Assembly (NCBI RefSeq): GCF_006543045.1
Contig: NZ_RBZW01000010.1
Location: forward strand, 1 to 32,226
DNA from: Salinadaptatus halalkaliphilus
GTDB lineage: Archaea; Halobacteriota; Halobacteria; Halobacteriales; Natrialbaceae
DNA: 32,226 nt
Reading direction: 5' to 3'
This document shows positions 18,820 through 32,226 of the stretch, in pieces. Positions within the stretch are counted from its first letter, which is position 1. Every line of letters begins with the position of its first letter. Below the pieces are notes generated by a model. That model was not told the origin of the DNA and made no database searches. It saw only the letters and a list, made by a program, of their open reading frames with translations. The position numbers were made by a program, and so were the translations under genes.

Positions 18820-18857
18820 ATCGGTTCAGTCTCCGGTTCTCTTGATGTTCACCGTTC

Positions 18858-18905: not shown

Positions 18906-19006
18906 GCGGAAGCCGATACTCGATGACACAAACAACACGCGATAGAAAGGCTGACTCCTCAGCCCGAACAAATACGTTCAAATATATTTACACATACTGA
19001 TGAAGT

Positions 19007-20236: not shown

Positions 20237-20250
20237 AGCGGGAGTCCACT

Positions 20251-20285
20251 GACAAGCCTCGGGGCTTGACCCCGAGGCGGTTGAC
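20251..20285 (+). mobile_element. Right-end hairpin and predicted omega-RNA end
   Basis: GACAAG is followed by the stem GCCTCGGGG (20256-20264) / CCCCGAGGC (20270-20278) with a 5-nt loop, and then GGTTGAC ending at 20285. The same sequence-structure-sequence order ends the two other intact TnpB elements. The guide portion would start at 20286. Confidence 0.6.
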
Positions 20286-20655: not shown

Positions 20656-21303
20656 TCAGATCAGCTTCGGGCGGAGCGGGATCCCTTCCCACCGGGTGTG
20701 ACAAGGCTCACAGAGCGAGACTAGGTTTGATGGATCGTGTGCAGCCTCGAGCTCATCCTCGTCGAATTCCGAGAACGGCTGAATATGATGTACTCGCGGC
20801 GTATAGCCGAGTTCATTTTCGTTACGGCCACACCCTTGGCAGGTTCGATTATCTCGCTCCAAGACCTGTTCACGCCGCTCTTTCCACAGTGGTCCATAGT
20901 TCGGAGTTGATTCCCAATCGTAGGTCGCTGTTTCCTGCTGCCATTCCCACTTACACTCTCGACTACAGAAATGGCGATTTGCTGGTTCGATATCGTACTG
21001 AATTCGCCTGATGGTCTCGCCGCAGTTTGTACATTCCGTCTGCGGACGATTGTCTATCTGCCATCGCCCTCTACACTCCTTGCTACAGAAATGGTTTGTC
21101 TGATCGTCTCTAAGCTTCTTTTCGTATCGTTTGAAGTCCGTCCCACAGTAGTCATATTGGAGGACGATTCTGCTGTCCATTTGTTCAGACCGCCACTTCC
21201 CGTGACATATTTTATCACAGAAGTGGTGCTCTGCACGCTCCACTACCGACGGCGGTCTTGAGACTGTATCTCCACAGAAGTCACACTCAACTTCGACGGG
21301 CAT
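20656..21303 (-). CDS. HNH endonuclease with three N-terminal zinc ribbons
   Basis: A 215-residue protein. Three similar treble-clef/zinc-ribbon units come first: CDFCGDTV...HFCDKICHGKW (about 7-37), a second with YCGTDFKR...HFCSKECRGRW (about 52-81) and CTNCGETIRR...HFCSRECKWEW (about 91-120). The second unit has Tyr where the first Cys is expected, so it may bind zinc weakly. The C-terminal HNH domain reads WKERREQVLERDNRTCQGCGRNENELGYTPRVHHIQPFSEF...NLVSLCEPCHTRWEG, with both CxxC pairs and the catalytic HH...N...H pattern. HNH proteins nick or cut DNA in restriction, homing and phage systems. There is no methylase next to it, so a restriction role is not supported. The nearest upstream gene on the same strand is 55 nt away. 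Confidence 0.85.
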   Translation of the reverse strand: MPVEVECDFCGDTVSRPPSVVERAEHHFCDKICHGKWRSEQMDSRIVLQYDYCGTDFKRYEKKLRDDQTNHFCSKECRGRWQIDNRPQTECTNCGETIRRIQYDIEPANRHFCSRECKWEWQQETATYDWESTPNYGPLWKERREQVLERDNRTCQGCGRNENELGYTPRVHHIQPFSEFDEDELEAAHDPSNLVSLCEPCHTRWEGIPLRPKLI

Positions 21304-21357
21304 AGATCGGCATCTCGCCGACCATTAGCAACCGTCATCACTGATGAATGTCAGGGG

Positions 21358-21681
21358 TTACTCGTCCGGGTTGACCGGTCCTTTATATTTGGACTTCACC
21401 GATTTACCTTCTCGCCACTGCCAGTAGTAGTAGCGGTTGTCGTTAATCTCCTTGATCGTGATCGTGGCCTTCGCCGGGACGTCGTCCGGCAGATCGTCGG
21501 GGCGTTCTTCGATTTCGCTTTCATCTGAGTCCTCTTCGAGACGGGCCTCGCGAGCTTTGTGCTCAGCTAACTCTTCAGCGTAGCGGGCAACGTGCTGGAG
21601 CTGCTCAGAAGAGGATTCGTTAAGCGTATTGACGAGGTCTGACGGGAGTTCCGCCGGCGGCGTCGGTGGCTCGTAGGACAT
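21358..21681 (-). CDS. Small conserved haloarchaeal protein (DUF6788-like)
   Basis: A 107-residue protein starting at the ATG at 21681 (MSYEPPTPPAELPSDLV); an in-frame start 14 codons earlier would place translation inside the upstream palindrome and is not preferred. An acidic helix (SSEQLQHVARYAEELAEHKAREARLEE) is followed by an acidic linker and a conserved tail, ATITIKEINDNRYYYWQWREGKSVKSKYKGPVNP. From memory this is a widespread haloarchaeal family, possibly DUF6788, common on plasmids. No function is known to me. A 12-bp inverted repeat directly upstream points to tight regulation. Confidence 0.7.
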   Translation of the reverse strand: MSYEPPTPPAELPSDLVNTLNESSSEQLQHVARYAEELAEHKAREARLEEDSDESEIEERPDDLPDDVPAKATITIKEINDNRYYYWQWREGKSVKSKYKGPVNPDE

Positions 21682-21697
21682 CAGCGGTCGCCTCGTG

Positions 21698-21738
21698 TTA
21701 ACCAACAAAGTGCGTATCGGCATAGATTTGTTGGTTAA
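21698..21738. promoter_or_regulatory. 12-bp inverted repeat, probable operator (TTAACCAACAAA type)
   Basis: TTAACCAACAAA (21698-21709) and TTTGTTGGTTAA (21727-21738) are perfect inverted copies 17 nt apart, just upstream of the ATG at 21681. The same half-site TTAACCAAC recurs at about 30488 and at 31995-32034. Confidence 0.65.
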
Positions 21739-21768
21739 TCAGATATCGACTCGTCACGGGTTGAAGAG

Positions 21769-21790
21769 TATGAATAGCAAACTATTCATA
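21769..21790. promoter_or_regulatory. 9-bp inverted repeat
   Basis: TATGAATAG (21769-21777) and CTATTCATA (21782-21790) are perfect inverted copies around CAAA. They lie in the promoter region of the small gene to the left and after the stop of the gene to the right. The repeat could be an operator or a weak terminator hairpin. Confidence 0.4.
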
Positions 21791-21885
21791 AATAGCAACC
21801 CGGGAACGCTGTCGATGTCAAACCAACGGCAATCAATTACACCTCACCGTGGAGGAGGTCGATAATTCAATTGCTGCTGTGAAAC

Positions 21886-22560
21886 TCACGAGCATTCTCT
21901 TTCTGACTCACGGTAGGAAACATCGAGATCGAGATCGTCGTACATGCGATCGAGCATAGCGAGTGCTGACTGAAACGTCGCATAATGCTTCCGCATGAAC
22001 TCTATCGTCTCGCGCCGAGAGATGACTGGATATCCTTCGACGTGGTCGGGGTTGAGCATCGAACGCTCGTTGAGGACGACTTGGAGAGGACCTTCAAACG
22101 ATTCCTCCGGTTGTCGCTCAAATCCTGTTGGGATTCCAAACCGTTCGAAAAAACGCTGCCAGGCGTCGATGTCCTTCTCAAGGACGGCAAGAAAGAGCGG
22201 GTAGTCTCCGGGCTCGCGACCAACCTGATAGCCCCCTTGGGTCCACACGTAGACGGCGTCCACCTGTGTAAAGGCGAAGGGCCAGTCACCGAACTGTGGG
22301 AGTACGTACGCCTCTTCGATGGACGGTGGATTCACAGCAGCACTCGTGGCTAGCAGGTCTCGTGTCGCCTTACGGACGCGATCGTCGGTCACGAACAGTC
22401 CGTCATCATATCGAAGATACCCTGCATCCTCTAGTTGATTGACTGCTTGACGAACCGTTTCGTAGGGGGTGTGGAGATGTTGGGCTACCGTTCGGATCGA
22501 ATCCCCAGGATTGACTGCGAGCAACACTCTAACAGCAGTCTCATCAAACGGTCCGTACAT
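21886..22560 (-). CDS. Winged-helix protein with a conserved haloarchaeal C-terminal domain
   Basis: A 224-residue protein. Residues 5-60 form a MarR/ArsR-like winged helix (AVRVLLAVNPGDSIRTVAQHLHTPYETVRQAVNQLEDAGYLRYDDGLFVT). The remaining part (IEEAYVLPQFGDWPFAFTQVDAVYVWTQGGYQVGREPGDYPLFLAVLEKDIDAWQRFFERFGIPTGFE, then HVEGYPVISRRETIEFMRKHYATFQSALAMLDRMYDD) is, from memory, conserved in haloarchaea in proteins that pair with a nucleotidyltransferase-like gene in a toxin-antitoxin layout. No such partner is adjacent here, so this may be an orphan antitoxin or regulator. A palindrome directly upstream suggests autoregulation. The ATG at 22560 opens into the conserved N terminus. Confidence 0.7.
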   Translation of the reverse strand: MYGPFDETAVRVLLAVNPGDSIRTVAQHLHTPYETVRQAVNQLEDAGYLRYDDGLFVTDDRVRKATRDLLATSAAVNPPSIEEAYVLPQFGDWPFAFTQVDAVYVWTQGGYQVGREPGDYPLFLAVLEKDIDAWQRFFERFGIPTGFERQPEESFEGPLQVVLNERSMLNPDHVEGYPVISRRETIEFMRKHYATFQSALAMLDRMYDDLDLDVSYRESERECS

Positions 22561-22568
22561 CTAATAGA

Positions 22569-22584
22569 TACCAATATTTTGGTA
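22569..22584. promoter_or_regulatory. Palindrome TACCAA-TATT-TTGGTA before the winged-helix gene
   Basis: A perfect 6-bp inverted repeat with a 4-nt spacer lies 8 nt upstream of the ATG at 22560. A TATA-like stretch (TAATTTATTT on the minus strand, about 22590-22600) lies just beyond. The position fits an operator for the encoded winged-helix protein. Confidence 0.5.
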
Positions 22585-22631
22585 ACAGTCAAATAAATTA
22601 CTACACTTTCGGCTATGACGCTCTGAACGGC

Positions 22632-22925
22632 CTATGCAATCCGTCTGACTGACTCAAGTCCCGAGACACCAGCCAGTCTGTCTCTGACCTCCTCCTCGCC
22701 AATCGCCGTAGTCCACAGGACCGTAATTTCGACGGTGATGAGTGTGGCTGACAGCTGTGGCTCGATACTATCCAATTCGTCAATCGTGACGTCATCGATA
22801 GTTTCGGGCCGCGAGAGACGCTTCTCAGCGTCAGTGACGAGGTCCCCATCCGCGCCGCAGGGGATTCGAATCGTCACGACGGCAATTGTCGTCGAGTCTA
22901 GGTCGGTGGTATTGGATACTGCCAT
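22632..22925 (-). CDS. Small hypothetical protein downstream of the Ro60-like gene
   Basis: A 97-residue acidic protein beginning at the ATG at 22925. The frame extends further upstream, but this start has a good ribosome-binding site (GGAG, 8 nt before the ATG). The sequence is two alpha/beta halves: TTIAVVTIRIPCGADGDLVTDAEKRLSRPETIDDVTIDELDSIEPQLSATLITVEITVLW and a final helical EEEVRDRLAGVSGLESVRRIA. The fold could be ferredoxin-like; I do not recognise the family. It lies about 150 nt downstream of the Ro60-like gene on the same strand and may be the last gene of the tRNA/Ro60 transcription unit. Confidence 0.6.
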   Translation of the reverse strand: MAVSNTTDLDSTTIAVVTIRIPCGADGDLVTDAEKRLSRPETIDDVTIDELDSIEPQLSATLITVEITVLWTTAIGEEEVRDRLAGVSGLESVRRIA

Positions 22926-23077
22926 ATTATCATCTCCGTTGAGGCGCGTCTCACGGGCCAGATGTTCGACAACTGTACTCCGAGTGCACGAGGGACGATT
23001 CGAACGCCCGTCTCGGTCGTGGCACAACCGCGTGTTTCCGAACTCCACCACTCGCGCATCCTCAAATCCGAACTGGG

Positions 23078-24607
23078 CTAGGTCGGGTCGAACGCCTCGA
23101 TCTCATCGATGATCTGTTTCGGATTCTCGGCGTGTTCGATGAACGAGAGGACGTTCTCCGACCATCCCGAGATGTTGTAGACGTTTTCGTAGCCTTCTGG
23201 CGTCACCAGGTCGCCGTAGGCCGCGAGATCGACGAGATACAGCGCGGTGTCCGCAGACACCTCGTCTCGATACGCATCGAACGCGTCTTTGACCGTCTGG
23301 GAATCGCGGGCCGTGAACGGCGTGTTGTCCCAGATCTGCATATCGGTGAAGACGACGATGCGTTCAACAGCATCCCCTCGGTCGTGGAGGTGCTTGATCG
23401 CCCTCCAGCCGTTCGTCGAGTTTCCGACATCCTCGTCGATCGCCAACACCGCCGCTTGGCGCTGCAGGACTGGCGTGTCGACGTGCATCGGAACGGTCTG
23501 GAAGTCGTCGCCGAACCCGCCGACGTCAGCACCCTGGTCGGCCAGGATCGCACCGAACAATGCACCGATCTCCTTCAGTCGGAGCGTGCTGTTCGCGGAC
23601 AGCGGCTGATCCATCGATCCCGACAGGTCGACCGCGACAAAGGTATCGCCGAATCCGCCAGGCACCGTCTCGACCGCGACATCAATTGCGTCTTCGAGCC
23701 ACTGCTCGACCGTCGGTGCCTGGACATCCGCGTCTTGCAGCGCGGTGTAGGCCTGGTAGTACCGGAACGGGTACAGCGGCGCGTGGCGGATGGCCTCCAG
23801 GTCGAGGTGATCCACGACGGTGTCCTCCGGAACGCCGGCTTCGAGCATATTCCGGAGGTTCCGGATCGACGCGAAGATGGGCAGCGTGTACTCGTCGTCC
23901 TCGATGAGCAGTTCCCAGGCGGCTTGGGTGTTGCCGCGCTCGGAGATAACCGTCTCCCACGTGTTCGGCGCCGGCAACGGGTCGACGTCGGGATAGTCGT
24001 CGAGGCCACCACGCATGAACCGCTCGAAGAGCGCTTCCTGCTCGGCGTCGATGGGCGTGGGGTGGACGCGGTTGAAGACGTCGTGCAGCGTCACCTCGCG
24101 CTGCGACAGCTCGTACTTGCCCAGCGTGTAGGCGTCGGCCATCTCCACCAGCGCGTCCTCGATCCCGCGTCGAAGCGGCCACGGCGCAGTCCCGCCGAAC
24201 AGCTGATCGTGGACCGCGAGCGCGGTGGCCGTCTCGTCCATCCGCTGGATGATCGCCGGCGCCCATTCGCGGATGAGCGACTCGGGGGAGTCGTCCTTGA
24301 ATCGGTCGTCGTTGGCTGCCAGTACGAGTAGCACTTGTGGGATGTCCCGCAAGTAGAGCTCCTGGCGCGCATAGGCCGCGAGCTTCAGGACGAACTCCGG
24401 GTCCTCGTTTGCGGCGGCATCGAACTGGCGAACGACAGCAGCGAGCTGTTCGTCATCGGTCTCGTAGAACGAGCCCTCCAGCAGCTGGTTGATCGTGCGC
24501 TTGTACAGTGCGAGTCGGGGGTCGGCAGGCTCGAACGCTTCGCCACCCTCGTAGTTGGTGGTCCGCGTTGCCTCCGCGACCGTTTGCTTTGGCGTGTTGA
24601 ATTCCAT
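23078..24607 (-). CDS. Ro60-like RNA-binding protein (TROVE plus von Willebrand A domain)
   Basis: A 509-residue Ro60 (Rsr) homologue. Residues about 10-300 are the HEAT-like helical TROVE domain, which in known relatives forms a ring that holds Y RNAs on its surface and passes the ends of misfolded RNAs through its centre. Diagnostic pieces are YKRTINQLLEGSFYE, FVLKLAAYARQELYLRDIPQVLLVLAA and HAPLYPFRYYQAYTAL. The vWA domain follows with a complete MIDAS site: D327-x-S329-x-S331 in AVDLSGSMDQ, T398 and D422 in VVFTDM. The ATG at 24607 has GGTGAT just upstream, complementary to the 16S rRNA 3' end; the frame further upstream runs into tRNA-Arg and is not coding. It lies at the downstream end of a 14-tRNA array on the same strand and directly after two structured tRNA-like RNAs that are candidate Y RNAs. 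Family members act in RNA quality control and stress survival; mycobacteriophage Bxz1 is a known case of a Ro homologue next to a large tRNA set. Confidence 0.92.
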   Translation of the reverse strand: MEFNTPKQTVAEATRTTNYEGGEAFEPADPRLALYKRTINQLLEGSFYETDDEQLAAVVRQFDAAANEDPEFVLKLAAYARQELYLRDIPQVLLVLAANDDRFKDDSPESLIREWAPAIIQRMDETATALAVHDQLFGGTAPWPLRRGIEDALVEMADAYTLGKYELSQREVTLHDVFNRVHPTPIDAEQEALFERFMRGGLDDYPDVDPLPAPNTWETVISERGNTQAAWELLIEDDEYTLPIFASIRNLRNMLEAGVPEDTVVDHLDLEAIRHAPLYPFRYYQAYTALQDADVQAPTVEQWLEDAIDVAVETVPGGFGDTFVAVDLSGSMDQPLSANSTLRLKEIGALFGAILADQGADVGGFGDDFQTVPMHVDTPVLQRQAAVLAIDEDVGNSTNGWRAIKHLHDRGDAVERIVVFTDMQIWDNTPFTARDSQTVKDAFDAYRDEVSADTALYLVDLAAYGDLVTPEGYENVYNISGWSENVLSFIEHAENPKQIIDEIEAFDPT

Positions 24608-24721
24608 CCTATCACCCGGAGCCGCAACAGGCGACTCCGATCGTAGCTGCCCACAAGCTCTGTGAGCAGCGAGTCTCGGGAGAGAAACTTCCCGAACCAG
24701 CCTCGCATCGCTCGGCTGGAC

Positions 24722-24795
24722 GTTCCCGGCACGATTCGAACGTGCGACACCCGGCTTCGAAGGCCGGTGCTCTGTCCTGACTGAGCTACGGGAAC
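24722..24795 (-). tRNA. tRNA-Arg (anticodon UCG)
   Basis: A full cloverleaf of 74 nt: acceptor GTTCCCG/CGGGAAC, D-arm GCTCAGTCAGGACAGAGC, anticodon stem CCGGC/GCCGG with loop CTTCGAA (anticodon TCG, codon CGA) and T-arm GCACG-TTCGAAT-CGTGC. All stems pair fully. It is the array member nearest the Ro60-like gene. Confidence 0.92.
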
Positions 24796-24803
24796 ACGAG
24801 TGG

Positions 24804-24954
24804 CCGGACAATTTCTGGAGCGAACGACGGGATTCGAACCCGTAATGTGCCATCGACGTAGCGCTCCAGATCGACGGTCACTGGCGACACGACGACCGGA
24901 AAACTGTCGGAGCGGGACCGGTGTCGAGCGTCCTCTCGTACGCTCTTTGTCCGG
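24804..24954 (-). ncRNA. Structured tRNA-like RNA A, candidate Y RNA (YrlA-like)
   Basis: No anticodon arm can be drawn, yet the 3' part has a perfect T-arm (ACGGG-TTCGAAT-CCCGT) followed by an acceptor-like strand CGTTCGC that pairs with GCGTACG at the 5' side (6 of 7 pairs). This helix continues outward into GA/TC pairs and then, after an internal loop, an 8-bp terminal stem CCGGACAA/TTGTCCGG that closes the whole 151-nt RNA. A D-arm-like GGAC/GTCC hairpin follows the 5' strand. Where an anticodon arm should be, there is a long irregular arm (CGCTCC/GGAGCG, then CGGTC/GACCG). Bacterial YrlA RNAs combine a tRNA-like T/D module with a long closing stem that binds Ro60. The Ro60-like gene starts about 200 nt downstream on the same strand. 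That this is a Y RNA is inference. Confidence 0.5.
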
Positions 24955-24973
24955 GATGTTCTCGATGGGTTGT

Positions 24974-25169
24974 GCCACCGACAGGATTTGAACCTGCGAG
25001 TTCCTGGCGAAGCAACGCTCCGACTCGACGGTCGCCACGTGCGGTCGAGCAACTGGTGGTGCGACGGGCTATGACTCCCGTTGGTGTGCTTTGCGGGCGA
25101 AGAAACGCACCACCTCGTCGACCACACGCTTGGGGAACGCTGACCGTGACAGCGTCACGGATCCGTGGC
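24974..25169 (-). ncRNA. Structured tRNA-like RNA B, candidate Y RNA (YrlA-like)
   Basis: A second RNA with a perfect T-arm loop (GCAGG-TTCAAAT-CCTGT) and acceptor strand CGGTGGC, which pairs with GCCACGG about 195 nt upstream (6 of 7). No anticodon arm with T33 and good stems can be found. Instead, a very long hairpin fills the middle: CGTGTGGTCGA with TCGACCGCACG (11 bp, one G-U; plus-strand positions 25118-25128 and 25038-25048), an internal loop, then GGTGGTGCG with CGCACCACC (9 bp; 25106-25114 and 25055-25063). The 5' side also carries a 7-bp hairpin (25144-25160). A long stem interrupted by an internal loop is what Ro60 binds in Y RNAs. It lies next to RNA A and the Ro60-like gene. Exact ends are uncertain, and an intron-bearing or decayed tRNA is the alternative. 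Confidence 0.45.
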
Positions 25170-25221
25170 TGCCCGCTATGTCAGACACGGAAAAACGCTG
25201 TCAGGGCCAGCCTCCCCGACT

Positions 25222-25296
25222 GCTCCCGAGGGGAATCGAACCCCTGGCCTCCAGTTTGAAAAACTGGCGTCTCTCGCCAACGGAGACTCCGGGAGC
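25222..25296 (-). tRNA. tRNA-Glu (anticodon UUC)
   Basis: A 75-nt cloverleaf: acceptor GCTCCCG/CGGGAGC, anticodon stem CCAGT/ACTGG with loop TTTTCAA (anticodon TTC, codon GAA) and T-arm AGGGG-TTCGATT-CCCCT. All stems are perfect. Confidence 0.92.
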
Positions 25297-25338
25297 GCTG
25301 GAGAGTAAATCAAGCACCGAGGTGTGGGCACGCACGGG

Positions 25339-25743
25339 TCACTGCAGCCGTTCGAAGCCCTCGAGTTGCCCGTGCGTGAACGTTACTTGATACGTGACGA
25401 GTGTCTCGAGACCCTCGAAGGAGTGTTTGAGCTTGAAGCGGCCGTGGTAGTCGTCTCGTTCGATCCAGCCGTCGTGGACTCGGTTCCGACTGCCGGCCAT
25501 GTAGCGAAAATCGTCCTCGTCGACGTCGTCACGGCTCGCGTATGGCCGGTCTTCCGGCGGGACCGCTTCGGTGTGCCACTCCTCTTCGAGGAGCCGACCG
25601 TCCGCCGTAATCCGAAATGTGGTCATGGTCGGTCGATCGATGCCTTTCGTCTGCCAGTCGACATCCTCGGCAGGAGTAATCCCTTCGGGGTACTCTGGCA
25701 GGTGGACGTCGTCGTAGAGTTCGACTGTATCGAATAGTCCCAT
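25339..25743 (-). CDS. Phage-like hypothetical protein inside the tRNA array
   Basis: A 134-residue acidic protein from the ATG at 25743. The frame extends upstream only into tRNA-Met sequence, so this start is right. The N terminus MGLFDTVELYDDVHLPEYPEGITPAEDVDWQTKGIDRPTMTTFRITADGRLLEEEW resembles, as I remember, small proteins of unknown function in tailed phages and prophages. No catalytic motif is seen. It lies between tRNA-Glu(UUC) and tRNA-Met on the same strand, as small orphan genes do within phage tRNA arrays, and supports a viral origin of the array. Confidence 0.7.
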   Translation of the reverse strand: MGLFDTVELYDDVHLPEYPEGITPAEDVDWQTKGIDRPTMTTFRITADGRLLEEEWHTEAVPPEDRPYASRDDVDEDDFRYMAGSRNRVHDGWIERDDYHGRFKLKHSFEGLETLVTYQVTFTHGQLEGFERLQ

Positions 25744-25756
25744 TGTTGTCCTCCAT

Positions 25757-25826
25757 TGCGGGACCAGGAGTCGAACCTGGGCCTCGGGGATATGAGCCCC
25801 GTGGACTGCCATTATCCTATCCCGCA
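25757..25826 (-). tRNA. tRNA with anticodon CAU (Met, or Ile2 if modified)
   Basis: A compact 70-nt cloverleaf: acceptor TGCGGGA/TCCCGCA, anticodon stem CGGGG/CCCCG with loop CTCATAT (anticodon CAT) and T-arm CCAGG-TTCGACT-CCTGG. The first pair is U1-A72, unlike archaeal initiators (A1-U72), so it is an elongator Met or an AUA-reading Ile tRNA; the sequence alone does not decide. The variable loop has only 4 nt. Confidence 0.88.
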
Positions 25827-25930
25827 GCACACAATTCGGAACTCACTCATGGGCATCTCTCAGTTCTCCACAGCTGTCCGTCCCTCAGTCTCGTCGGCTG
25901 GAAGTGAGAGGTCTCGGACTGTTGGAGAAT

Positions 25931-26002
25931 GCTCCAGCCCGGATTCGAACCGGGGGCTCGGCCGTGAGAGGGCCGTGAGTTTGGCCGCTACTCCACTGGA
26001 GC
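25931..26002 (-). tRNA. tRNA-Glu (anticodon CUC)
   Basis: A 72-nt cloverleaf: acceptor GCTCCAG/CTGGAGC, anticodon stem CGGCC/GGCCG with loop CTCTCAC (anticodon CTC, codon GAG) and T-arm CCCGG-TTCGAAT-CCGGG. It is the second Glu isoacceptor in the array. Confidence 0.9.
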
Positions 26003-26037
26003 GGGTTGGCCTCGTCTGGAACGGGTCGTCGGCCAGT

Positions 26038-26169
26038 GGGACGGGCAGGATTCGAACCTGCGTGTTCTCGTTACAAGTGAGATGAAGGAACTCTCACCGT
26101 CGCACCGGGTCTCCGGTGAAAACTCGGTGAGTGTGTGTGTGTGTGAATGCCAGGCTCTTCCACCGTCCC
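26038..26169 (-). tRNA. tRNA-Thr (anticodon UGU) with a 61-nt insertion
   Basis: The acceptor is perfect (GGGACGG/CCGTCCC), as is the T-arm (GCAGG-TTCGAAT-CCTGC). The anticodon arm is TCTCA/CGAGA (one A-C mismatch) with loop CTTGTAA (anticodon TGT, codon ACA). The D-arm (GAAG...ATTC) is separated from the anticodon arm by about 61 extra nt (26083-26143) that fold on themselves: CTCACCG/CGGTGAG around a CACCGG/CCGGTG hairpin, preceded by a CA dinucleotide run. Canonical archaeal introns sit one base after the anticodon; this one would lie between the D- and anticodon arms. It may be a non-canonical intron, a permanent extra arm, or decay. Confidence 0.7.
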
Positions 26170-26173
26170 GCAG

Positions 26174-26246
26174 TCTCCCCGGCACGACTCGAACGTGCGT
26201 CTCCTCCTCTACAGGGAGGTATCGTAGCCGCTAGACCACAGGGAGA
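26174..26246 (-). tRNA. tRNA-Tyr (anticodon GUA)
   Basis: A 73-nt cloverleaf: acceptor TCTCCCT/GGGGAGA (last pair U-G), anticodon stem CCTCC/GGAGG with loop CTGTAGA (anticodon GTA) and T-arm GCACG-TTCGAGT-CGTGC. It starts only 4 nt from tRNA-Thr, so both must be cut from one precursor. Confidence 0.88.
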
Positions 26247-26250
26247 AAAT

Positions 26251-26332
26251 GTCGCCGCGAGGATTCGAACCTCGGAAGGACCTACGCCAGCGGGTCTGAG
26301 CCGCTTCTCGTTGACCACTTGAGTACGGCGAC
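26251..26332 (-). tRNA. tRNA-Leu (anticodon CAG)
   Basis: An 82-nt class II cloverleaf: acceptor GTCGCCG/CGGCGAC, anticodon stem AGCGG/CCGCT with loop CTCAGAC (anticodon CAG, codon CUG), a long variable arm, and T-arm CGAGG-TTCGAAT-CCTCG. The base after the acceptor is A, the Leu discriminator. Confidence 0.9.
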
Positions 26333-26375
26333 GTAACGGTGAAGCGAGAATTGTCTCCCGGCACGATGGCCGGAT

Positions 26376-26456
26376 GCCGCCACCAGGATTCGAACCTGGG
26401 AAGGACTAACCACACGGGTCTCGACCGTGTCCGTTCGACCACTCTGGCATGGCGGC
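26376..26456 (-). tRNA. tRNA-Leu (anticodon GAG), unusual C33
   Basis: An 81-nt class II cloverleaf: acceptor GCCGCCA/TGGCGGC, anticodon stem CACGG/CCGTG, long variable arm and T-arm CCAGG-TTCGAAT-CCTGG. The loop reads TCGAGAC: the central triplet is GAG (codon CUC), but position 33, almost always U, is C. A73 and similarity to the Leu-CAG neighbour favour Leu over a shifted reading as Ser(CGA). Confidence 0.75.
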
Positions 26457-26518
26457 GCAATTCGAGAATCGCCGGCGACTCTGCGAATCACTTCGGCACG
26501 CAGCGGCGGGAGAGCGAT

Positions 26519-27906
26519 GTCAACTGCCCCGCGCACGGTGGCGCGGGGCTTGTCAGTGAACTCGGCCTCTGCCGACCATAGTTAGTCGGACGAGACAAAG
26601 CCCCGGTTCGGCGTCACCGTTCCTGACTTCAGGGCGAGTTGACTGTCGCCCGTCCGCCGCGACGACTGTAGGCCGCGACGGACATACCGCCACCCAATAT
26701 TCTTCGCTCCAACATAGTCCGCGTTCGCTGTCGTATCACACCTCTCGCACTCAAACTCTGCCTGTGTTACGCGGTTCCCTTTACTCGTGTGTCCACATTC
26801 GGGACACCGACGACTCGTATTCTCCGGATCGACGTACTCTACGCAGATGCCTTCCGTCTCGGACTTGTACTCCACGAGATCAACGAGTTGCCGATGCGCC
26901 CACTGGTGGAACTCTTTGACCGGCGGCACACGGTCTCTGATGTGGGTCAGATTCTCGAATGCAATGTATTCACAGTCGTGATTCAACGCTTCTTCGATAA
27001 TGTCGTTGGCCACGCGATGCAGGACATCCCGAACGTAGCGGGACTCTCTGCCGCTCATCTGCTGGATGGTGCGGTGTGCGGACTGCGTACCGGTCTGTTG
27101 GAGACTGCTTCGAATCCGCTCGAACTCCCGGTGTCGATGTCTGACTTCTCTGCCGGACGCGAAGTACGCCGTTGAGGTTGTGGCGATGTTGACGATGCCG
27201 AGGTCGACGCCGAGAACTGTCCTGTCCTCGTCGTCGCCCTGTTGTTCGACCTGTTTCTCGGGCTTCGGTTTGCGAAAGCCGAGATGCAGGTAGTAGTCGC
27301 CATCACGCCGAGAAAGCGTGGATTCGGTGAGCTCCCAGTCCTCATCGTTGAGGTACTGGTGTTGGTAGCCGTCTTCGTCGTCCGGCAACGCGAGATCGCA
27401 CCGGATGCGGTCGTCAACCGTTGTAAGTGAGACTGTTTCGTCGTCGAACAGCGTCATCGTCCGGGTGTCGTATTTCACCGTGGTGGCGGTGAACTCCGGA
27501 CACGAGGTTTTGTATTTCTCGTCTAGTTCTTTGATTTCTTCGACGCCGGAGAGTGCGGCTGCGGCTTGGTGGGTGGCGAGGATTGCGTGTTGGCTCCCGA
27601 GACGCGTCTCCTCCAGCACCTCGTCGTAGGCGAGGTCTTGGAGGTATGTCTTCCGCGTTTCACCCGTTTGCCATCCGATCCGACTGCTGATGTTGCAGGC
27701 ATCTTGCCACTCGTTGATGGTGGCGTCAAGCAGATCTTGTTGCTCGGTGGTGAGGATGGGGCGGGTGATTGCGGTGCGTCGCAGGTAGTCGTCCGCCACG
27801 GTTTTCAATAGATATATGAGGTACTTAGTAATCGGTGGTTTGTGGCAGTGGGTGTTGGTTTCCTCCCCGCCCACCGGTGGGCGGGGAACCCGCCTTGCTA
27901 TCTAAT
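26519..27906 (-). mobile_element. TnpB element inserted in the T-loop of tRNA-Ser(GGA)
   Basis: The element is 1388 bp, and its borders are fixed by the reconstructed tRNA. The left end follows TTCAA, the presumed transposon-adjacent target, and contains a perfect 22-bp palindrome with arms CCCCGCCCACC/GGTGGGCGGGG (about 27866-27887). The right end carries GACAAG, a GCCCCGCGC..GCGCGGGGC hairpin (about 26525-26550) and GTTGAC, ending at 26519. No target duplication exists, as expected for IS200/IS605-type transposition. The only gene is tnpB. Confidence 0.8.
26582..27799 (-). CDS. tnpB: TnpB, RNA-guided DNA nuclease (element in tRNA-Ser)
   Basis: A complete TnpB of 405 residues from the GTG at 27799 (reading MADDYLRRTAITRPIL); the open frame upstream passes through left-end palindrome sequence and is unlikely to be coding. 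RuvC-I is GVDLGIVNIA (Asp about 199), RuvC-II AFENLT, the zinc ribbon CPECG...CERC and RuvC-III ADYVGAKN. All catalytic residues are there. It is more distant from the other two intact TnpBs here (first RuvC motif GVDLG rather than GVD.NVD), although the right-end hairpin design is shared. By analogy its omega RNA would carry a guide that reads from 26518 into the 3' end of tRNA-Ser(GGA), and so would match the empty target site next to TTCAA. No tnpA is present. Confidence 0.9.
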   Translation of the reverse strand: MADDYLRRTAITRPILTTEQQDLLDATINEWQDACNISSRIGWQTGETRKTYLQDLAYDEVLEETRLGSQHAILATHQAAAALSGVEEIKELDEKYKTSCPEFTATTVKYDTRTMTLFDDETVSLTTVDDRIRCDLALPDDEDGYQHQYLNDEDWELTESTLSRRDGDYYLHLGFRKPKPEKQVEQQGDDEDRTVLGVDLGIVNIATTSTAYFASGREVRHRHREFERIRSSLQQTGTQSAHRTIQQMSGRESRYVRDVLHRVANDIIEEALNHDCEYIAFENLTHIRDRVPPVKEFHQWAHRQLVDLVEYKSETEGICVEYVDPENTSRRCPECGHTSKGNRVTQAEFECERCDTTANADYVGAKNIGWRYVRRGLQSSRRTGDSQLALKSGTVTPNRGFVSSD

Positions 27907-27980
27907 TTGAACACTCGTGTCCTTGCGGACGCTGCGGTTCCAACGCAGTCCCTTGACCAAGCTAGGGAAACCCCGCCAAC

Positions 27981-28061
27981 GGTGAGATGGAGAGTCGAAC
28001 TCCGAAGCCTCGCGGCTCTCGGTTTCACACCGAGCGCGGTCGTCTATCCGCATGTCTCACC
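27981..28061 (-). tRNA. tRNA-Ser (anticodon UGA), unusual G33
   Basis: An 81-nt class II cloverleaf: acceptor GGTGAGA/TCTCACC, anticodon stem CTCGG/CCGAG, variable arm GCCGCGAGGC and T-arm CGGAG-TTCGACT-CTCCA (the pair furthest from the loop is mismatched). The anticodon loop is TGTGAAA: the central TGA fits Ser (codon UCA), but position 33 is G instead of U. The discriminator is G, as in Ser tRNAs. Confidence 0.75.
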
Positions 28062-28203
28062 ATCTCCGTCGGAACTTGCTCCGACAAGCCCGCCTCGCGT
28101 TTCTCACCGGGACACCGGAAGACGCGCATTACTCAGCTTCTGCCCCTCACTACCGAGGCGAATGTGCTCATCAGCATCCAGTCACAGCAGGGATGGATGG
28201 TGG

Positions 28204-28344
28204 TCACCTCGTTCCGTGGAAGTATGCGCCGTCCTCGGTGACGCAGATTTCCACGCTTCCAATCGTGTCGATAGACGTTGTTTCACCGATCGGGACGTGA
28301 CGGAACGCTTCCTCCTCGCAGGCAGGGCAGACATTCGTTGTCAT
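28204..28344 (-). CDS. Very small CxxC protein inside the tRNA array
   Basis: A 46-residue frame starting at the ATG at 28344, three nt after tRNA-Ser(GCU): MTTNVCPACEEEAFRHVPIGETTS and so on to DGAYFHGTR. One CPAC knuckle and a later single Cys (VEICV) and His may make a small zinc site. I do not recognise a family. Such mini-genes are common between phage tRNAs. Coding is supported by the acidic composition and the start position only. The 140 nt from 28062 to 28203 hold nothing I can name. Confidence 0.45.
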   Translation of the reverse strand: MTTNVCPACEEEAFRHVPIGETTSIDTIGSVEICVTEDGAYFHGTR

Positions 28345-28347
28345 GAC

Positions 28348-28433
28348 GCCGCGACCCGGATTCGAACCGGGAGACCGGTAGCAGACGGTCACGGCATAGC
28401 AGGCCGCTGGGTTCCCCAATACCCAGTCGCGGC
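28348..28433 (-). tRNA. tRNA-Ser (anticodon GCU)
   Basis: An 86-nt class II cloverleaf: acceptor GCCGCGA/TCGCGGC, D-arm CTGGGT...ACCCAG, anticodon stem GCGGC/GCCGT with loop CTGCTAT (anticodon GCT, codon AGC), variable arm GACCG...CGGTC and T-arm CCCGG-TTCGAAT-CCGGG. The discriminator is G. Confidence 0.9.
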
Positions 28434-28438
28434 ACAGT

Positions 28439-28510
28439 GAGCCGACGCGGATTCGAACCTCGGTCCTGTGCGCCCAAGGCACAGATCGTCGTCCGCTGGA
28501 CCATCGGCTC
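28439..28510 (-). tRNA. tRNA-Pro (anticodon UGG)
   Basis: A 72-nt cloverleaf: acceptor GAGCCGA/TCGGCTC, anticodon stem TGTGC/GCACA with loop CTTGGGC (anticodon TGG, codon CCA) and T-arm CGAGG-TTCGAAT-CCGCG with one A-G mismatch in the stem. Only 5 nt separate it from tRNA-Ser(GCU). Confidence 0.85.
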
Positions 28511-28760
28511 ACTGGACTGCCGAGCGTTCGGCAGTTGATTATCTATCTGTACGACTTTCCAACTGCGCAACCGCGACCGAGTAGTCGTGGTTGCGCGTCT
28601 CATCGCGGGGGCGTACTTCGGGTGTTCCCGGGAATACCACACCGGCTTATGTAGGTTGCAGACCCTGCTGGGCCCAGCATCGTCGGAACGATCCAGCTGA
28701 TCGCACCAACGGGCTGCCTACCTCGATGGGTATCCCCACGTGGTTTATCCACGCGTCCAC
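28511..28760. other. Gene-free stretch with strong hairpins between tRNAs
   Basis: No gene or tRNA is recognisable. An 8-bp hairpin ACTGCCGA/TCGGCAGT lies at 28516-28535. A 13-bp helix follows at 28565-28596: GCGCAACCGCGAC pairs with GTCGTGGTTGCGC around CGAGTA, complete (one G-U) if read as plus-strand RNA and with one A-C mismatch if read on the minus strand. Palindromes GCTGGGCCCAGC and CCACGTGG follow. A processed spacer or an unknown small RNA are both possible. Confidence 0.4.
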
Positions 28761-28833
28761 GCCGACGCCGGGATTCGAACCCGGATCACGGCCGTGACAG
28801 GACCGTATGCTCGCCGGATTACACCACGTCGGC
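28761..28833 (-). tRNA. tRNA-Asp (anticodon GUC)
   Basis: A 73-nt cloverleaf: acceptor GCCGACG/CGTCGGC, anticodon stem CGGTC/GGCCG (one U-G) with loop CTGTCAC (anticodon GTC, codon GAC) and T-arm CCGGG-TTCGAAT-CCCGG. Confidence 0.92.
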
Positions 28834-28841
28834 ATGCAGTC

Positions 28842-28914
28842 GCCCCGGCCGGAATCGAACCGGCGACCTCCGGATTCAAAGTCCGGCGTCCCTCGCCAGC
28901 GGAGACTCCGGGGC
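28842..28914 (-). tRNA. tRNA-Gln (anticodon UUG)
   Basis: A 73-nt cloverleaf: acceptor GCCCCGG/CCGGGGC, anticodon stem CCGGA/TCCGG with loop CTTTGAA (anticodon TTG, codon CAA) and T-arm GCCGG-TTCGATT-CCGGC. It is the first tRNA of the array in the direction of transcription. Confidence 0.92.
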
Positions 28915-29627
28915 TAGGCGTAGCCGCAGCTATCGCTGCGGGGCTGTTGGCTAACGACTTCCGTGCGCTCAGCGCGGACGGAGCCCGTTCTCCCCTGTAT
29001 CGGAACGAACGGAAACCAATCAGCCGCGAGCCTGGCACCCCACACTCGCTTCACGCTGTGTACTGAGCGAGTACTGGGCAAAGGCAGGCGGCAATCCCGT
29101 GTTCCCCGATCCCTGACGGGTAGTCCGTATGGGGGCCGAGTTATGCGGGTGAGAGTGTCCGGCCGTCGCCGGATTGCGTCGAACTCTCGTATTCGAAGCC
29201 GACGTGGATCCGGCGGTTTGCGCCCGGTCTCTTCGCACGCTGATCTTGTAGGCACTCGCCGAACACAGGACCCGCGGCTAAGCGAGAACGAGCACGCCGC
29301 GGGGTGAGGCGAGTGATAATCATCGTGTTGAACGCTCCCAGTTTGAGGGGTGTATCGGACGTCAACCTGGATTATCGTGGCAATTGTATTAAAATTAGTC
29401 AGGGTGTGGGTAACACACCCATAGTGGTGGACAGTCGAATGTCATACTCAGCTTTTTGAGCGCCGAACATACTCCCCACCTGCGTTGTCTCTCGGCTTAA
29501 GGGGTGATCCAATACGGAGTGTTTCCGGGAGGCCGCACAGAAACTATAGCCACCCTACCAGCAACGGCGCAAATTAGGTTCGGCGTCTACTGTAAACGGC
29601 GGGATTCTCTCCTCGCAGAAAGATAGT
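28915..29627. other. Gene-free leader of the tRNA array
   Basis: No reading frame here looks like protein and no further tRNA is found. A perfect hairpin CCGCAGC/GCTGCGG (28924-28941) stands just before tRNA-Gln. A TATA-like box on the minus strand lies at 29387-29394, so the region 28915-29365 would be a long leader RNA. Further right, GGGTGTG/CACACCC (29402-29420) is an inverted repeat. The leader could hide another structured RNA that I cannot identify. Confidence 0.4.
29387..29394 (-). promoter_or_regulatory. Candidate promoter of the tRNA/Ro60 array
   Basis: The minus strand reads TTTTAATA, preceded by CTAA, in an otherwise GC-rich region. It is the most AT-rich spot upstream of the first tRNA. 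Transcription would begin near 29365 and run through the tRNAs toward the Ro60-like gene. Internal promoters are not excluded. Confidence 0.35.
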
Positions 29628-30428
29628 TCACCGTTCTCCCCCCTCTTCCCACTCCGGACGTGGCGTCGGGGACGGGAGTTCGTCAACCACAGTTCGGAGT
29701 TCGTCCTCTGTCGTCCACGGGAAGCACCGATCGTGGAGTTCGAATTTGCGGAACTTGTTGAGATGGACCCAACTGTACGTTGCCGGCGCTTCGCCCTCCT
29801 CTGCCCGGTCGTCGATCACACCCCAAATCTCCTGTTCGTCGATGTCGAGACCCCTCTTTTGGGCGCGGTCAACGAGTGACTCGACTTTTGATTGGACTTC
29901 ATCCGCCGACAAATCGTCTGCGAACGCAATCTCGAGGGCGGCCTGAACGACGTGCTGTGTCGAGTCAAGGTTCTCGTCAGTCACCCACGCGTAATCACGC
30001 GGGAACACGTACGACTTGTCGAAATACGGGCGGTCATCGATCTCACCCAACTCAGGCGCCTCCCCACCACTCTCCTTCTCGAAGATACCGACGATGTAGT
30101 CGCTGTATGTCGCGAGCAATGAAAACATGATATCGAACGTATTGAGCCGGTCAGTCGGGAGTTCGAGGAGATCACCCATGATGAACGGATAGGCACCGAG
30201 CTGCTTCGTGAGTTCGTTCTGGACGGCGCGAAGTCGGCGGATATAGGGGTCGCGATAGCTTCCCAGGATGAAATACGATGTCCGCTGACTCCAGAGATAC
30301 GGCAATTCACGCTGGGTGAACCGCCAGATCTCCCGTTTCTCTGCGGGCTCAAGTTCGATGCCCCCGACGGCCTCGTGAACAACGGTCATAATCTCCCCAG
30401 CGTCCGGCGGCGGGCTTGAGTCGGTCAT
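29628..30428 (-). CDS. Haloarchaeal protein with a possible TIR-like/nucleotide-binding fold
   Basis: A 266-residue protein from the ATG at 30428; a TTG five codons earlier is the alternative. Residues about 45-150 look like a Rossmann-type domain: a strand (SYFILGSYRDP), a long helix, then LLATYSDYIVGIFEKESGGEAPELGEI, a strand, a loop and YVFPRDYAW. The order of a strand, a Ser/Gly-rich turn and an ExGE helix recalls predicted nucleotide-binding proteins related to TIR and nucleoside deoxyribosyltransferase folds, used as NAD- or nucleotide-degrading effectors in defence. That match is from pattern memory and is weak. The C-terminal 80 residues (YSWVHLNKFRKFELHDRCFPWTT) are conserved-looking but unknown. 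It is divergent from an ArsR-like regulator, with a palindrome between them. Confidence 0.6.
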   Translation of the reverse strand: MTDSSPPPDAGEIMTVVHEAVGGIELEPAEKREIWRFTQRELPYLWSQRTSYFILGSYRDPYIRRLRAVQNELTKQLGAYPFIMGDLLELPTDRLNTFDIMFSLLATYSDYIVGIFEKESGGEAPELGEIDDRPYFDKSYVFPRDYAWVTDENLDSTQHVVQAALEIAFADDLSADEVQSKVESLVDRAQKRGLDIDEQEIWGVIDDRAEEGEAPATYSWVHLNKFRKFELHDRCFPWTTEDELRTVVDELPSPTPRPEWEEGGER

Positions 30429-30487
30429 TAGCTGCCGATTCAAACTACACCACCTTATCCCTTCTGAATCACTTTGGTTTTTTCTGA

Positions 30488-30506
30488 GTTAACCAACTTG
30501 GTCAAC
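30488..30506. promoter_or_regulatory. Palindrome GTTAACCAA-C-TTGGTCAAC between divergent genes
   Basis: Nine-base arms with one mismatch around a central C. It lies just upstream of a TATA-like GTTATAG (about 30513-30519), which is about 27 nt before the ATG at 30544. It shares the TTAACCAAC half-site with the repeats at 21698-21738 and 31995-32034. Confidence 0.55.
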
Positions 30507-30543
30507 CCTAACTGTTATAGCGCCCTCCCTCGTACCATCACGT

Positions 30544-31032
30544 ATGAGCGAAACCGACACTGGCACGGCCGATGCAGGGCCGTTCGCGGAACAGCAGCGG
30601 CTGTTCAAGCTGCTGTCCCAGGATACGCGCCATCTCATCATCCAGGAGCTGCTGGGCCATCCCGCCCATCTGATGTCGCTCGCCGAACTCGAGTATATGA
30701 CTGGGAAGAGTCAGGCGGCCATCAAAGACCAGTTGGAGACGTTGATCGACGCCGGGCTCCTCACACGCTACACGTACGACCCAAGCGAGGGGAAACGTGA
30801 CCTCCCCTCCCAGTTCTACGGATTCACTGAGCGGGGCGTCGAGGTCCTCCACGACTACAAGTATCTCCGTGGGCTTCCGGTCGCACGCGCGCTCTACGAA
30901 AACACGCGCAAGACCGAGAAAATCGAGCGCCACGAATCGGCCCCTCGACCGGAGCTTCCAGATGCCGTCGCGGCAGCCCTCGAATTCGACGAGCCCGACC
31001 TCGACGCCGTCGATGGTGGCACGAACCCATAG
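30544..31032 (+). CDS. ArsR-like winged-helix regulator
   Basis: A 162-residue protein. After a short acidic tail, residues about 15-85 form a winged helix: EQQRLFKLLSQDTRHLIIQELLGHPAHLMSLAELEYMTGKSQAAIKDQLETLIDAGLLTRYTYD, then a wing and GFTERGVEVLHDYKYLRGLPVARALYENTRKTEKIERHESAPRPELP. From memory this form is highly conserved on haloarchaeal plasmids. No metal-binding Cys cluster is present, so it is not a classical metal sensor. The promoter is leaderless in style with a palindrome directly upstream, which fits autoregulation and control of the divergent gene. It converges on the AbiEi-like gene. Confidence 0.8.
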   Translation: MSETDTGTADAGPFAEQQRLFKLLSQDTRHLIIQELLGHPAHLMSLAELEYMTGKSQAAIKDQLETLIDAGLLTRYTYDPSEGKRDLPSQFYGFTERGVEVLHDYKYLRGLPVARALYENTRKTEKIERHESAPRPELPDAVAAALEFDEPDLDAVDGGTNP

Positions 31033-31094
31033 TTCGTCGTCGAACAGCACCGTTCTCGACGCTGCAGAGAAGGTACGCCGACTTCGTACCTTGG

Positions 31095-31925
31095 TCAGGA
31101 CTCCGTTGGCTCCAGCGTGGCTGGCTCGACGTTGATCCGGAGGCGATACGTGCTGTCGGTCGACCCGGTGTCGGGCCGCGTCGGGTCCAGCAGCGAGTAG
31201 CCACTCGTGAACGACGCGACGAGTTCCTCGCGGGCGGGGAGGTCGATGCCGAGCTGGTCGGCGAGGTAGACGATTCGCTTGGTCGCCGCCCCGTTGTCGA
31301 GGCGCTCGAGGTACTCGCCGACAGTGTCCCAGTCGCAACCACGGTCGTCGGCAGTACGCATCGCGGTTGCGAGTTCCCGAACGCCACCGCAGAACTCGGG
31401 ATGGTCCGCACAGTCGACCAGCGTCTTCTCCAGGTCGCTGACCTGAACGGTCGTACCCTCGATCGATGTCGGCTCAAGGCCGAAGAATTTCTGCTCGGTG
31501 ATCGTCGTGACGCGGTACGGGACACCGTGGATCTCTCGGCTTTGCGCTCGGGTCGGCGTGACGACGTACACCGTCCGGGGGACCTGTTCGGTCAGCCCGT
31601 GGTGGCTGAGGGCGCTGTAGTAGCCGATGTACATCGGCTCGGCGACGTGGGCGGCGATGAGGTACTCGTGGGTGGTGTACACGGCCTTCTCGCCGGCAGT
31701 GAGTGGAATGATGAGATACGTGCCCGGGAAGAGACGGTCGAGCCAGCCCTTCTCGGTGAGCCGGGAGGCAATCTCTCGGGCGGTGTTCGGGGGGACCTCC
31801 AGCGTCGTCTCGATGTCGTCGATGGAGATGATTTGGTGACCCGCGCCAGCGAGTCGTGCAAGGAGTCGACTTTCTCGAGTCGAGAGGCCCTGGCGTATAT
31901 TTTGTGATTGTTCTATAGTACTCAT
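31095..31925 (-). CDS. AbiEi-family antitoxin-like protein, without visible toxin partner
   Basis: A 276-residue protein of the AbiEi type (antitoxin of type IV systems). An N-terminal winged helix (LSTRESRLLARLAGAGHQIISIDDIETTLEVPPNTAREIASRLTEKGWLDRLFPGTYLIIP, about 14-75) is followed by the conserved core HEYLIAAHVAEPMYIGYYSALSHHGLTEQVPRTVYVVTP and SDLEKTLVDCADHPEFCGGVRELATAM. AbiEi represses its own operon and opposes AbiEii, a nucleotidyltransferase toxin normally encoded directly downstream. Here the downstream space ends after 60 nt at a convergent gene, so no AbiEii is present. The ATG at 31925 is certain from the family start, and a long palindrome lies upstream as expected for AbiEi autorepression. 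Confidence 0.85.
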   Translation of the reverse strand: MSTIEQSQNIRQGLSTRESRLLARLAGAGHQIISIDDIETTLEVPPNTAREIASRLTEKGWLDRLFPGTYLIIPLTAGEKAVYTTHEYLIAAHVAEPMYIGYYSALSHHGLTEQVPRTVYVVTPTRAQSREIHGVPYRVTTITEQKFFGLEPTSIEGTTVQVSDLEKTLVDCADHPEFCGGVRELATAMRTADDRGCDWDTVGEYLERLDNGAATKRIVYLADQLGIDLPAREELVASFTSGYSLLDPTRPDTGSTDSTYRLRINVEPATLEPTES

Positions 31926-31994
31926 ACCTGCGTTTCTTACATAGAGTATGAATTTTGGGCCTGCTTTATCCTTGTCCCATCCCTCTTAGCCTCC

Positions 31995-32034
31995 TTAACC
32001 AACACAAATCACCCGATAGATATGTGTTGGTTAA
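31995..32034. promoter_or_regulatory. 12-bp inverted repeat, probable operator (TTAACCAACACA type)
   Basis: TTAACCAACACA (31995-32006) and TGTGTTGGTTAA (32023-32034) are perfect inverted copies 16 nt apart; one further pair outside also matches. The repeat lies about 70 nt upstream of the AbiEi-like start. AbiEi proteins are known to bind inverted repeats in their promoter, but the same half-site also occurs before two unrelated genes in this window. Confidence 0.65.
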
Positions 32035-32226
32035 GAACCGTGAAGACTGTGAATGAACAAATCGGATGTTGCAAGTACTCACGTCTTCCTGTGGACGTAT
32101 TCTACAAGGTGTGTGGGGTGAAAGACTGGAAGTATGTGTTTACCCCGAAGGCTCAACAGCCGGTACAGCGTGACTCCGTGAGATCATCTCATTGGTGCTA
32201 ACGACTCGACGAAGTTCTTCGTAGGG
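32035..32226. other. Right edge without recognisable gene
   Basis: A plus-strand open frame (31908-32201) crosses the palindrome, is rich in Cys, Tyr and Trp and lacks the acidic composition of the other proteins, so I do not call it a gene. Nothing else is visible up to the window end. Confidence 0.4.

Follow-up and report, generated by a model that had tools for sequence, protein, structure and literature searches.

A TnpB element in the T-loop of a plasmid tRNA-Ser(GGA) gene and its tRNA-linked relatives in haloarchaea

What brings a TnpB element into the middle of a tRNA gene, and do its relatives stand in any particular relation to tRNA genes? The question is raised by a stretch of 32,226 nucleotides from Salinadaptatus halalkaliphilus (hereafter the window), which is the entire contig NZ_RBZW01000010.1 of a 4.52 Mb genome assembled in 77 contigs. 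An IS200/IS605-type TnpB element is inserted in the window exactly in the T-loop of a plasmid tRNA-Ser(GGA) gene, directly after the sequence TTCAA. The element contains tnpB only, and presumably belongs to what is called the IS1341 type, the name for TnpB-only IS200/IS605 elements such as this one. The start of tnpB was set at a GTG, as in an annotated homologue, 25 codons into a longer open reading frame reaching 27874. An element of this type would be moved by a Y1 TnpA, here supplied in trans; three other open reading frames inside the element had no Pfam match at E 0.1, the search for TnpA being confined to the element. Coordinates of all features are collected in Table 1.

When nucleotide 26518 was joined to 27907, ARAGORN called an 87-nt tRNA-Ser(GGA) with paired stems, the 7-nt T-loop TTCAAAT and a G73 after the acceptor stem. 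An earlier note on this DNA, made from the sequence alone, had proposed both the exact insertion in this T-loop and the restoration of a full tRNA-Ser with its loop, stems and G73; the latter is confirmed by this call, and the former by the joined gene together with the ends of relatives and the empty sites described below. The note had also taken the joining itself to fix the borders to the base. ARAGORN, however, still called the tRNA with the gap shifted by up to 6 bp or resized by 1 bp and was rejected as proof of an exact border; the borders proposed (26519 and 27906) hold because the ends of relatives align there. TTCAA was found at most 9 nt from the projected left end in 36 of the 41 aligned rows, which include copies of one locus (the exceptions were L013, L051, L093, the second L020 copy and L029; identifiers in L, G, C, g and f are our own for loci, genomes, contigs, genera and families). 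After TTCAA the left end of relatives mostly reads AC or AT and then TAGRTAGC, and the right end reads ...GTTGAC in nearly all 41 rows, followed by unrelated DNA. The adjacent motif named in the note was thus correct as TTCAA, which is the family motif, and not in the wider form TTCRA. The AT present on both sides of the junction derives once from the element and once from the target, judged by the ends of relatives.

A search for the uninterrupted gene in related arrays, as the note had suggested, was successful. The two halves were contiguous (TTCAA joined to ATCGC, with at most one substitution) in 6 of 11 array records (L081, L085, L086, L087, L088 and L091), in each of which an uninterrupted tRNA-Ser(GGA) was called, and the segment with the site was missing in the other five (L082, L083, L084, L089 and L090). 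The empty sites equal the joined flanks, and there is no target-site duplication. The same insertion with an identical element was present in Halobiforma haloterrestris DSM 13078 (L009), at 99.0% identity across 8463 bp; the sequence of L052 is the same as that of L009.

The DNA beyond the right end is the predicted guide, and the family to which the window TnpB belongs suggests that this protein would cleave DNA under RNA guidance. By splitting tRNA-Ser(GGA) after TTCAA, the insertion would have programmed TnpB with the 3′ half of the tRNA, and TnpB would then cut empty sister plasmids. The 20-nt guide fitted the empty tRNA-Ser(GGA) of pNVE500 (L081) in 20 of 20 positions and those of L085, L086 and L088 with 1 mismatch, of L091 with 5 and of L087 with 6. 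The main text of Mears et al. 2025 (PMC11870625), which concerns plasmid insertion sequence (IS) copies and in which the words tRNA and rescue are absent, describes a gene drive where TnpB records the insertion site and cuts IS-minus copies, a behaviour that would be expected of the window element. Given this drive and the fit of the guide to empty sister genes, the element could favour occupied plasmids. The second tRNA-Ser(GGA) of the same genome (contig C66) should be safe, because its tail differs from the guide.

Is the tRNA gene a preferred landing site? A pattern search of 391 genomes, in which the pattern itself required TTCAA and the family left end, gave 43 places in 31 genomes. The loci fetched had 37 distinct left flanks with this pattern, 19 of them joinable to a right end, and only one of the 19 joined sites was a tRNA, namely that of the window. 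TTCAA occurs at a density of about 0.6 per kb (15 stretches of this genome and relatives), or about 2700 sites per genome, so a single insertion in a tRNA needs no tRNA preference. The surrounding tRNA array does not offer a rich target either: the T-loop was TTCGA in 11 of 13 rows of the window array by script and in the remaining two on reading the sequence, and TTCAA was found in no array tRNA other than the split tRNA-Ser(GGA). By comparison, TTCAA is present in 19 of 39 distinct tRNAs of the same genome (L134-L163). Of the earlier note's expectations for mobile relatives, TTCAA near the left end was therefore upheld; flanks of the form TTCRA and a preference for tRNA genes, or for this array, were not.

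A relation to tRNA genes was instead found in separate relatives without a recognisable mobile left end. The second closest TnpB in the same genome (68%) starts adjoining a tRNA gene, and many relatives have a tRNA on their own strand no more than about 330 bp away. In these linked loci the DNA past the right end, in the position of the guide, is a near-copy of the 3′ half of the tRNA, beginning just after the T-loop motif. In a first set (n = 24), 18 loci matched at least 12 of 15 tRNA positions, as against 11 of 1200 shuffled tails. Altogether, the guide resembled the 3′ half of a nearby tRNA in 32 of 130 distinct TnpB loci. The 130 are the loci fetched (best hits and chosen regions, no random sample), made distinct by a 100-residue key, and the 32 comprise 27 in which the guide, placed by the right-end motif, agreed with a tRNA within 1.5 kb at 10 or more of 14 positions, and five weaker Thr loci (L033, L034, L043, L189 and L230); near relatives are contained in the 32, among them L033, L034 and L189. 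L192 was omitted, as the 5′ end of its tRNA-Thr is damaged. A mobile left end was recognised by pattern in 36 of the 130 loci, the window insertion included, and in none of the linked set. The linked tRNAs were Ser(GGA), Ser(TGA), Ser(CGA), Thr(GGT), Gly(CCC), Gly(GCC), Arg(GCG), Pro(TGG) and Lys(CTT). The RuvC D-E-D residues were kept in all 27 linked rows examined, and a role of the linked TnpBs as nuclease-dead regulators of the TldR type was rejected on this ground. Stops in L406, L038, L298, L229, L230 and L192 all lie upstream of the likely start, and that in L303 is at the C-terminal end. A terminal stem ahead of the guide was not used as evidence; it was changed in sequence and kept in some loci, and elsewhere had 4-5 bp or implausibly distant arms.

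The resident tRNA was a full target of its neighbouring guide in none of the 32 linked loci, by loss of the T-loop motif or by a non-wobble mismatch. All 26 linked tRNAs with TTCAA displayed at least one true mismatch in guide positions 1-12 (U-G counted as wobble). Four loci were without a true mismatch (L038, L062, L210 and L406), and in all four the T-loop of the tRNA was TTCGA; with L223 and L419, which are doubly protected by mismatch and TTCGA, the loci with TTCGA amount to 6 of 32. The association between TTCGA and mismatch gave a one-sided Fisher value of 4e-4, which ignores relatedness and concerns a rule fixed after the mismatches were known. In L406 the guide equals its own tRNA exactly, with TTCGA in the T-loop; the tRNA-Ser of G014, from the same genus, has TTCAA and is an exact target.

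Do the guides then correspond to tRNA alleles of other genomes? Among the linked tRNAs the searches covered Ser(GGA), Thr, Arg, Gly(CCC) and Lys; non-carrier here means a genome with no linked TnpB among the inspected loci, which is less than proof of its absence. The tRNA-Ser(GGA) loci fell into group A (9 loci), with CAGGG/CCCTG in the tRNA and CCCAG in the guide, and group B (6 loci), with CTGGG/CCCAG in the tRNA and CCCTG in the guide; of two others, L410 was like group B and L406 was without allele difference. Both tRNA alleles are common among non-carriers, and genera g10, g17 and g22 contain both cassettes. Among the matches listed, the first group-A guide with TTCAA was exact in G163, G240, G249, G396 and G073 and the group-B guide in G176, G335 and G069, whereas the second group-A guide had no exact match with TTCAA; tRNA-Ser(GGA) was confirmed for the exact-match loci L250 and L262.

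For tRNA-Thr, 152 of 242 genomes contained an exact copy of TTCAA with the guide of L223, L228 and L229; the 8 Thr carriers in the sample all lacked it, and 28 of 30 inspected loci with that sequence were tRNA-Thr(GGT). In family f1 the allele was missing in 4 of 4 carriers versus 4 of 57 others (Fisher 1.3e-4). Its absence in Halorubrum (g33) is not tied to TnpB, because only 7 of 30 genomes there have the allele. The Arg guide allele was present in 24 of the 28 genomes with the pattern (104 searched), and 10 of 14 inspected occurrences were tRNA-Arg(GCG). The Gly(CCC) guide allele was found in other genomes, e.g. G059, which belongs to the same genus (g16) as the carrier; wherever a Gly locus was checked for a tRNA call, it had the other allele.

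At tRNA-Ser(GGA), both TnpB and its guide are conserved. In group B the 15-nt guide was identical in all 15 pairs at a synonymous divergence (dS) of 0.95-2.25, with a ratio of nonsynonymous to synonymous divergence (dN/dS) of 0.10-0.22, and the flank 20-50 nt beyond the right end was only 0.07-0.43 identical. Group A displayed two guide variants, each invariant, and dN/dS of 0.09-0.32 where defined; its closest pairs also share flank. All 15 carrier regions had TnpB flanked by tRNA-Ser(GGA) on one side and an SRAP gene on the other, and the same neighbours were found without TnpB in 4 of 5 other regions fetched. Chromosomal position was established from such neighbours, for the tRNA-Ser(GGA) loci only. 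In a tree of 102 proteins, in which some placements are unsure owing to long branches, the tRNA label required 9 changes, at least 7 by starred branches, against 24 with shuffled labels.

The linked TnpBs are, in our judgement, rather probably nucleases retained beside tRNA genes and aimed at non-self tRNA alleles, the resident tRNA being resistant, either in the manner of cleave-and-rescue or as attachment-site immunity. Relatives of the window element would have settled several times beside tRNA genes, each with a guide that copies a version of the neighbour's 3′ half, and the resident tRNA would escape either because the guide region contains a mismatch or because its TTCAA has become TTCGA. 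The targets would be tRNA genes without the insertion, encountered when cells mate or DNA is transferred, or else the attachment sites that integrating elements use. If TnpB cuts DNA with the other allele, the locus may persist as a cleave-and-rescue-like unit. In engineered cleave-and-rescue and home-and-rescue drives a nuclease targets an essential gene and is linked to a resistant functional copy. More tentatively, and with rather less confidence than in the general reading, the linked loci might be natural haloarchaeal units of this kind, in which a fixed TnpB beside an essential tRNA gene is guided to the allele of relatives and the resident is changed in motif or seed; the two Ser(GGA) cassettes would then be opposites, as if mutually exclusive.

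Several observations weigh against non-self alleles as the targets of the linked TnpBs. The Ser guides have one extra C-to-T change, which makes a U-G wobble against the common opposite allele; exact Ser-guide matches were found in few genomes (among the matches listed) and none in IMG/VR. The guide of L406 is not of the opposite allele, so that protection there rests on TTCGA. Five of 8 Thr guides are off the common tRNA-Thr, by 1 (L033, L034, L189 and L043) or 3 (L230) positions, and the Thr allele is also missing in 4 of 57 other f1 and 19 of 26 other Halorubrum genomes. The Lys pattern occurred in 0 of 104 genomes. The remaining 6 of 24 matches in the first set (at most 11 of 15) are within the range of the shuffled control, and L300 is a pseudogene with two internal stops. 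As to the route of formation, no mobile left end was recognised at the linked loci, and the Lys and Ser(CGA) loci (L193 and L210) are inverted relative to the tRNA, which insertion in a T-loop does not yield. Finally, near-copies have a neutral source, considered below, in the partial tRNA tail that lies downstream of the gene at 22 of the 60 tRNA-Ser(GGA) loci inspected.

An alternative that we regard as unlikely, although it fares best among the rivals, is defence: host-domesticated TnpBs would cut mobile elements with a non-self tRNA allele in their attachment sites or tRNA genes, and the altered resident tRNA would spare the host and remove the integration site. Haloviruses (L368-L371) do carry tRNA-Thr(GGT) genes or 3′ fragments, and the fragments of HF2 and Serpecor1 are annotated as probable phage attachment sites (attP). 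The Haloferax plasmid pHGLR3 has a tRNA-Thr-like stretch (query 12-71, no ARAGORN tRNA) in which TTCAA and the 14-nt guide sequence shared by L223, L228 and L229 are present without a mismatch. IMG/VR contigs contained a tRNA-Ser(GGA) that has the A allele and is separated from the group-A guide by a single wobble, as well as a tRNA-Arg(GCG) in which the guide allele is found. Yet none of the 4 phage tails inspected (of 86 matching records) carries the guide allele, three being identical to a linked resident tRNA and one off by one base. pHGLR3 was the only exact target among 3 inspected plasmids (of 38 matching records), and the Thr target was absent from IMG/VR. A guard unable to hit viruses adapted to its own host would also be a weak one. 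For tRNA-Ser(GGA) the phage records gave no match and the plasmids only two short Rhizobium matches. We noticed in addition that the 5′ part of L192 (genus Halorubrum) resembles the HF2 fragment, and that six IMG/VR contigs (L376-L381) have tRNA-Gly-like tails outside ARAGORN calls, possibly attachment sites.

Improbable, in our view, is a neutral relic, in which TnpB lands in partial copies of tRNA tails near tRNA genes, the near-match marks the landing place and self-matching insertions are lost. Its material exists: the partial tails consist of TTCAA and the tRNA 3′ end, 113-248 bp downstream and within a unit like a miniature inverted-repeat transposable element (MITE). Of 23 copies, 19 were identical to the tRNA tail and 4 differed. 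The tails of G069 and G073 show guide-type substitutions, and that of G073, with TTCAA, equals the first group-A guide. This reading is strained by TnpB and guide being conserved at saturated synonymous divergence where the flank is not, and by the rarity of tRNAs among the joined sites of mobile copies. An origin from complete tRNA genes in tandem was not supported, as no second copy in L233-L292 was called as a tRNA. Just downstream of tRNA-Ser(GGA), many haloarchaea (L236-L240, L267, L281-L284, L290 and L292) have MITE-like units that combine inverted GGGATTTGAA with the 3′ tail of a tRNA-Ser. Under the reading of retained nucleases the tails may have a part of their own: since viruses and a plasmid carry tRNA tails and the G073 tail equals a guide, exchange by an integrase at the tRNA 3′ end could replace the resident allele while the former tail stays behind, and there, we infer, TnpB would land.

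Excision of a TnpB mini-element by a recombinase, with the guide-like repeat as attachment site, is very improbable, for although a direct repeat of tRNA 3′ halves flanks the gene as in integrative elements, the two repeats disagree with each other at positions that recur from locus to locus, two loci have an inverted repeat, and no recombinase gene was noticed between the repeats, where no profile search for one was made at the linked loci.

The window also contains a TROVE gene, a type B DNA polymerase gene and an Orc1/Cdc6 gene (Pfam), besides the tRNA array. Window positions 22900-32226 are similar to plasmids of Natrinema, Halobaculum, Haloplanus, Halorussus, Halosimplex and others, the seven best plasmid records covering 52-81% of this region at 94.4-95.7% identity. 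The TROVE gene and the tRNA array form a plasmid module (window 13001-28915; L081-L091) common to many haloarchaeal plasmids, and in L091 up to 23 tRNA genes were called in the array, which there adjoins type B DNA polymerase and Orc1/Cdc6. A tRNA-Ser(TGA) at 27988-28071 was called in L009 and uncalled in the window, a D-arm substitution separating the two. A tRNA-like gene at 26037-26103 was found by Rfam and missed by default ARAGORN; the stretch 26037-26171 is apparently interrupted, perhaps by an intron. Two more TnpB genes are present on the contig (Pfam; 4600-5901 and 19007-20236), and 93-953 is a possible TnpB remnant without a Pfam match.

Table 1. Position and basis of the features of the TnpB insertion in the window
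Feature	Positions	Strand	Basis
TnpB-only IS200/IS605-type (IS1341-like) element, 1388 bp	26519..27906	-	aligned ends of relatives, empty sites
tnpB gene, predicted RNA-guided nuclease	26582..27799	-	Pfam OrfB_IS605 and Cas12f1-like_TNB; RuvC D-E-D intact
5′ part of tRNA-Ser(GGA), ending with T-loop TTCAA	27907..27977	-	ARAGORN, empty sites
TTCAA, target-adjacent motif at the left end	27907..27911	-	aligned relatives
3′ part of tRNA-Ser(GGA): T-loop end, T-stem, acceptor, G73; equals predicted guide nt 1-15	26504..26518	-	ARAGORN, empty sites
Predicted 20-nt guide	26499..26518	-	comparison with empty genes
Right end: GC-rich hairpin, then GTTGAC; predicted 3′ part of omega-RNA scaffold	26519..26550	-	relatives; hairpin read from sequence
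Left end: TAGATAGC and GC-rich inverted repeat	27860..27906	-	sequence, aligned relatives
tRNA array adjoining TROVE gene, host context of the insertion	22984..28915	-	tRNA calls, Pfam, array relatives

Close relatives of the window TnpB thus look as if captured more than once as standing nucleases against tRNA alleles, with the resident copy altered, and the window insertion may be seen as a young, plasmid-borne counterpart of the linked loci. Haloarchaea mate by cell fusion, and if cutting occurs, the linked loci would constitute a natural chromosomal toxin-antidote system, or attachment-site immunity, in archaea that mate in this way. A tRNA-linked TnpB was not reported in the literature surveyed, of which most subscription journals were no part and to which PMC12558985 contributed in part.

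With IS200/IS605 TnpB elements the family shares the OrfB_IS605 and TNB domains, the RuvC D-E-D residues, a fixed adjacent motif, the lack of target duplication and a guide at the right end; unlike them, it has the motif TTCAA, one member that splits a plasmid tRNA and 32 relatives adjacent to tRNAs in which no mobile left end could be recognised. TnpB is known to act selfishly in helping transposons to be retained, and Cas12 is likely to descend from it. TldR, a nuclease-dead repressor derived from TnpB, resembles the linked loci in being a fixed TnpB-like protein with a conserved guide and differs from them in that their catalytic triad is intact. Integrases use tRNA genes as attachment sites, and the same part of the tRNA and displaced 3′ halves are involved here, whereas the effector is a predicted RNA-guided nuclease. 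Cleave-and-rescue and home-and-rescue drives, finally, are engineered, while the loci described here are natural and archaeal, concern a tRNA gene and would be putative as drives; the likeness consists of a predicted nuclease and a linked copy that is not its target.
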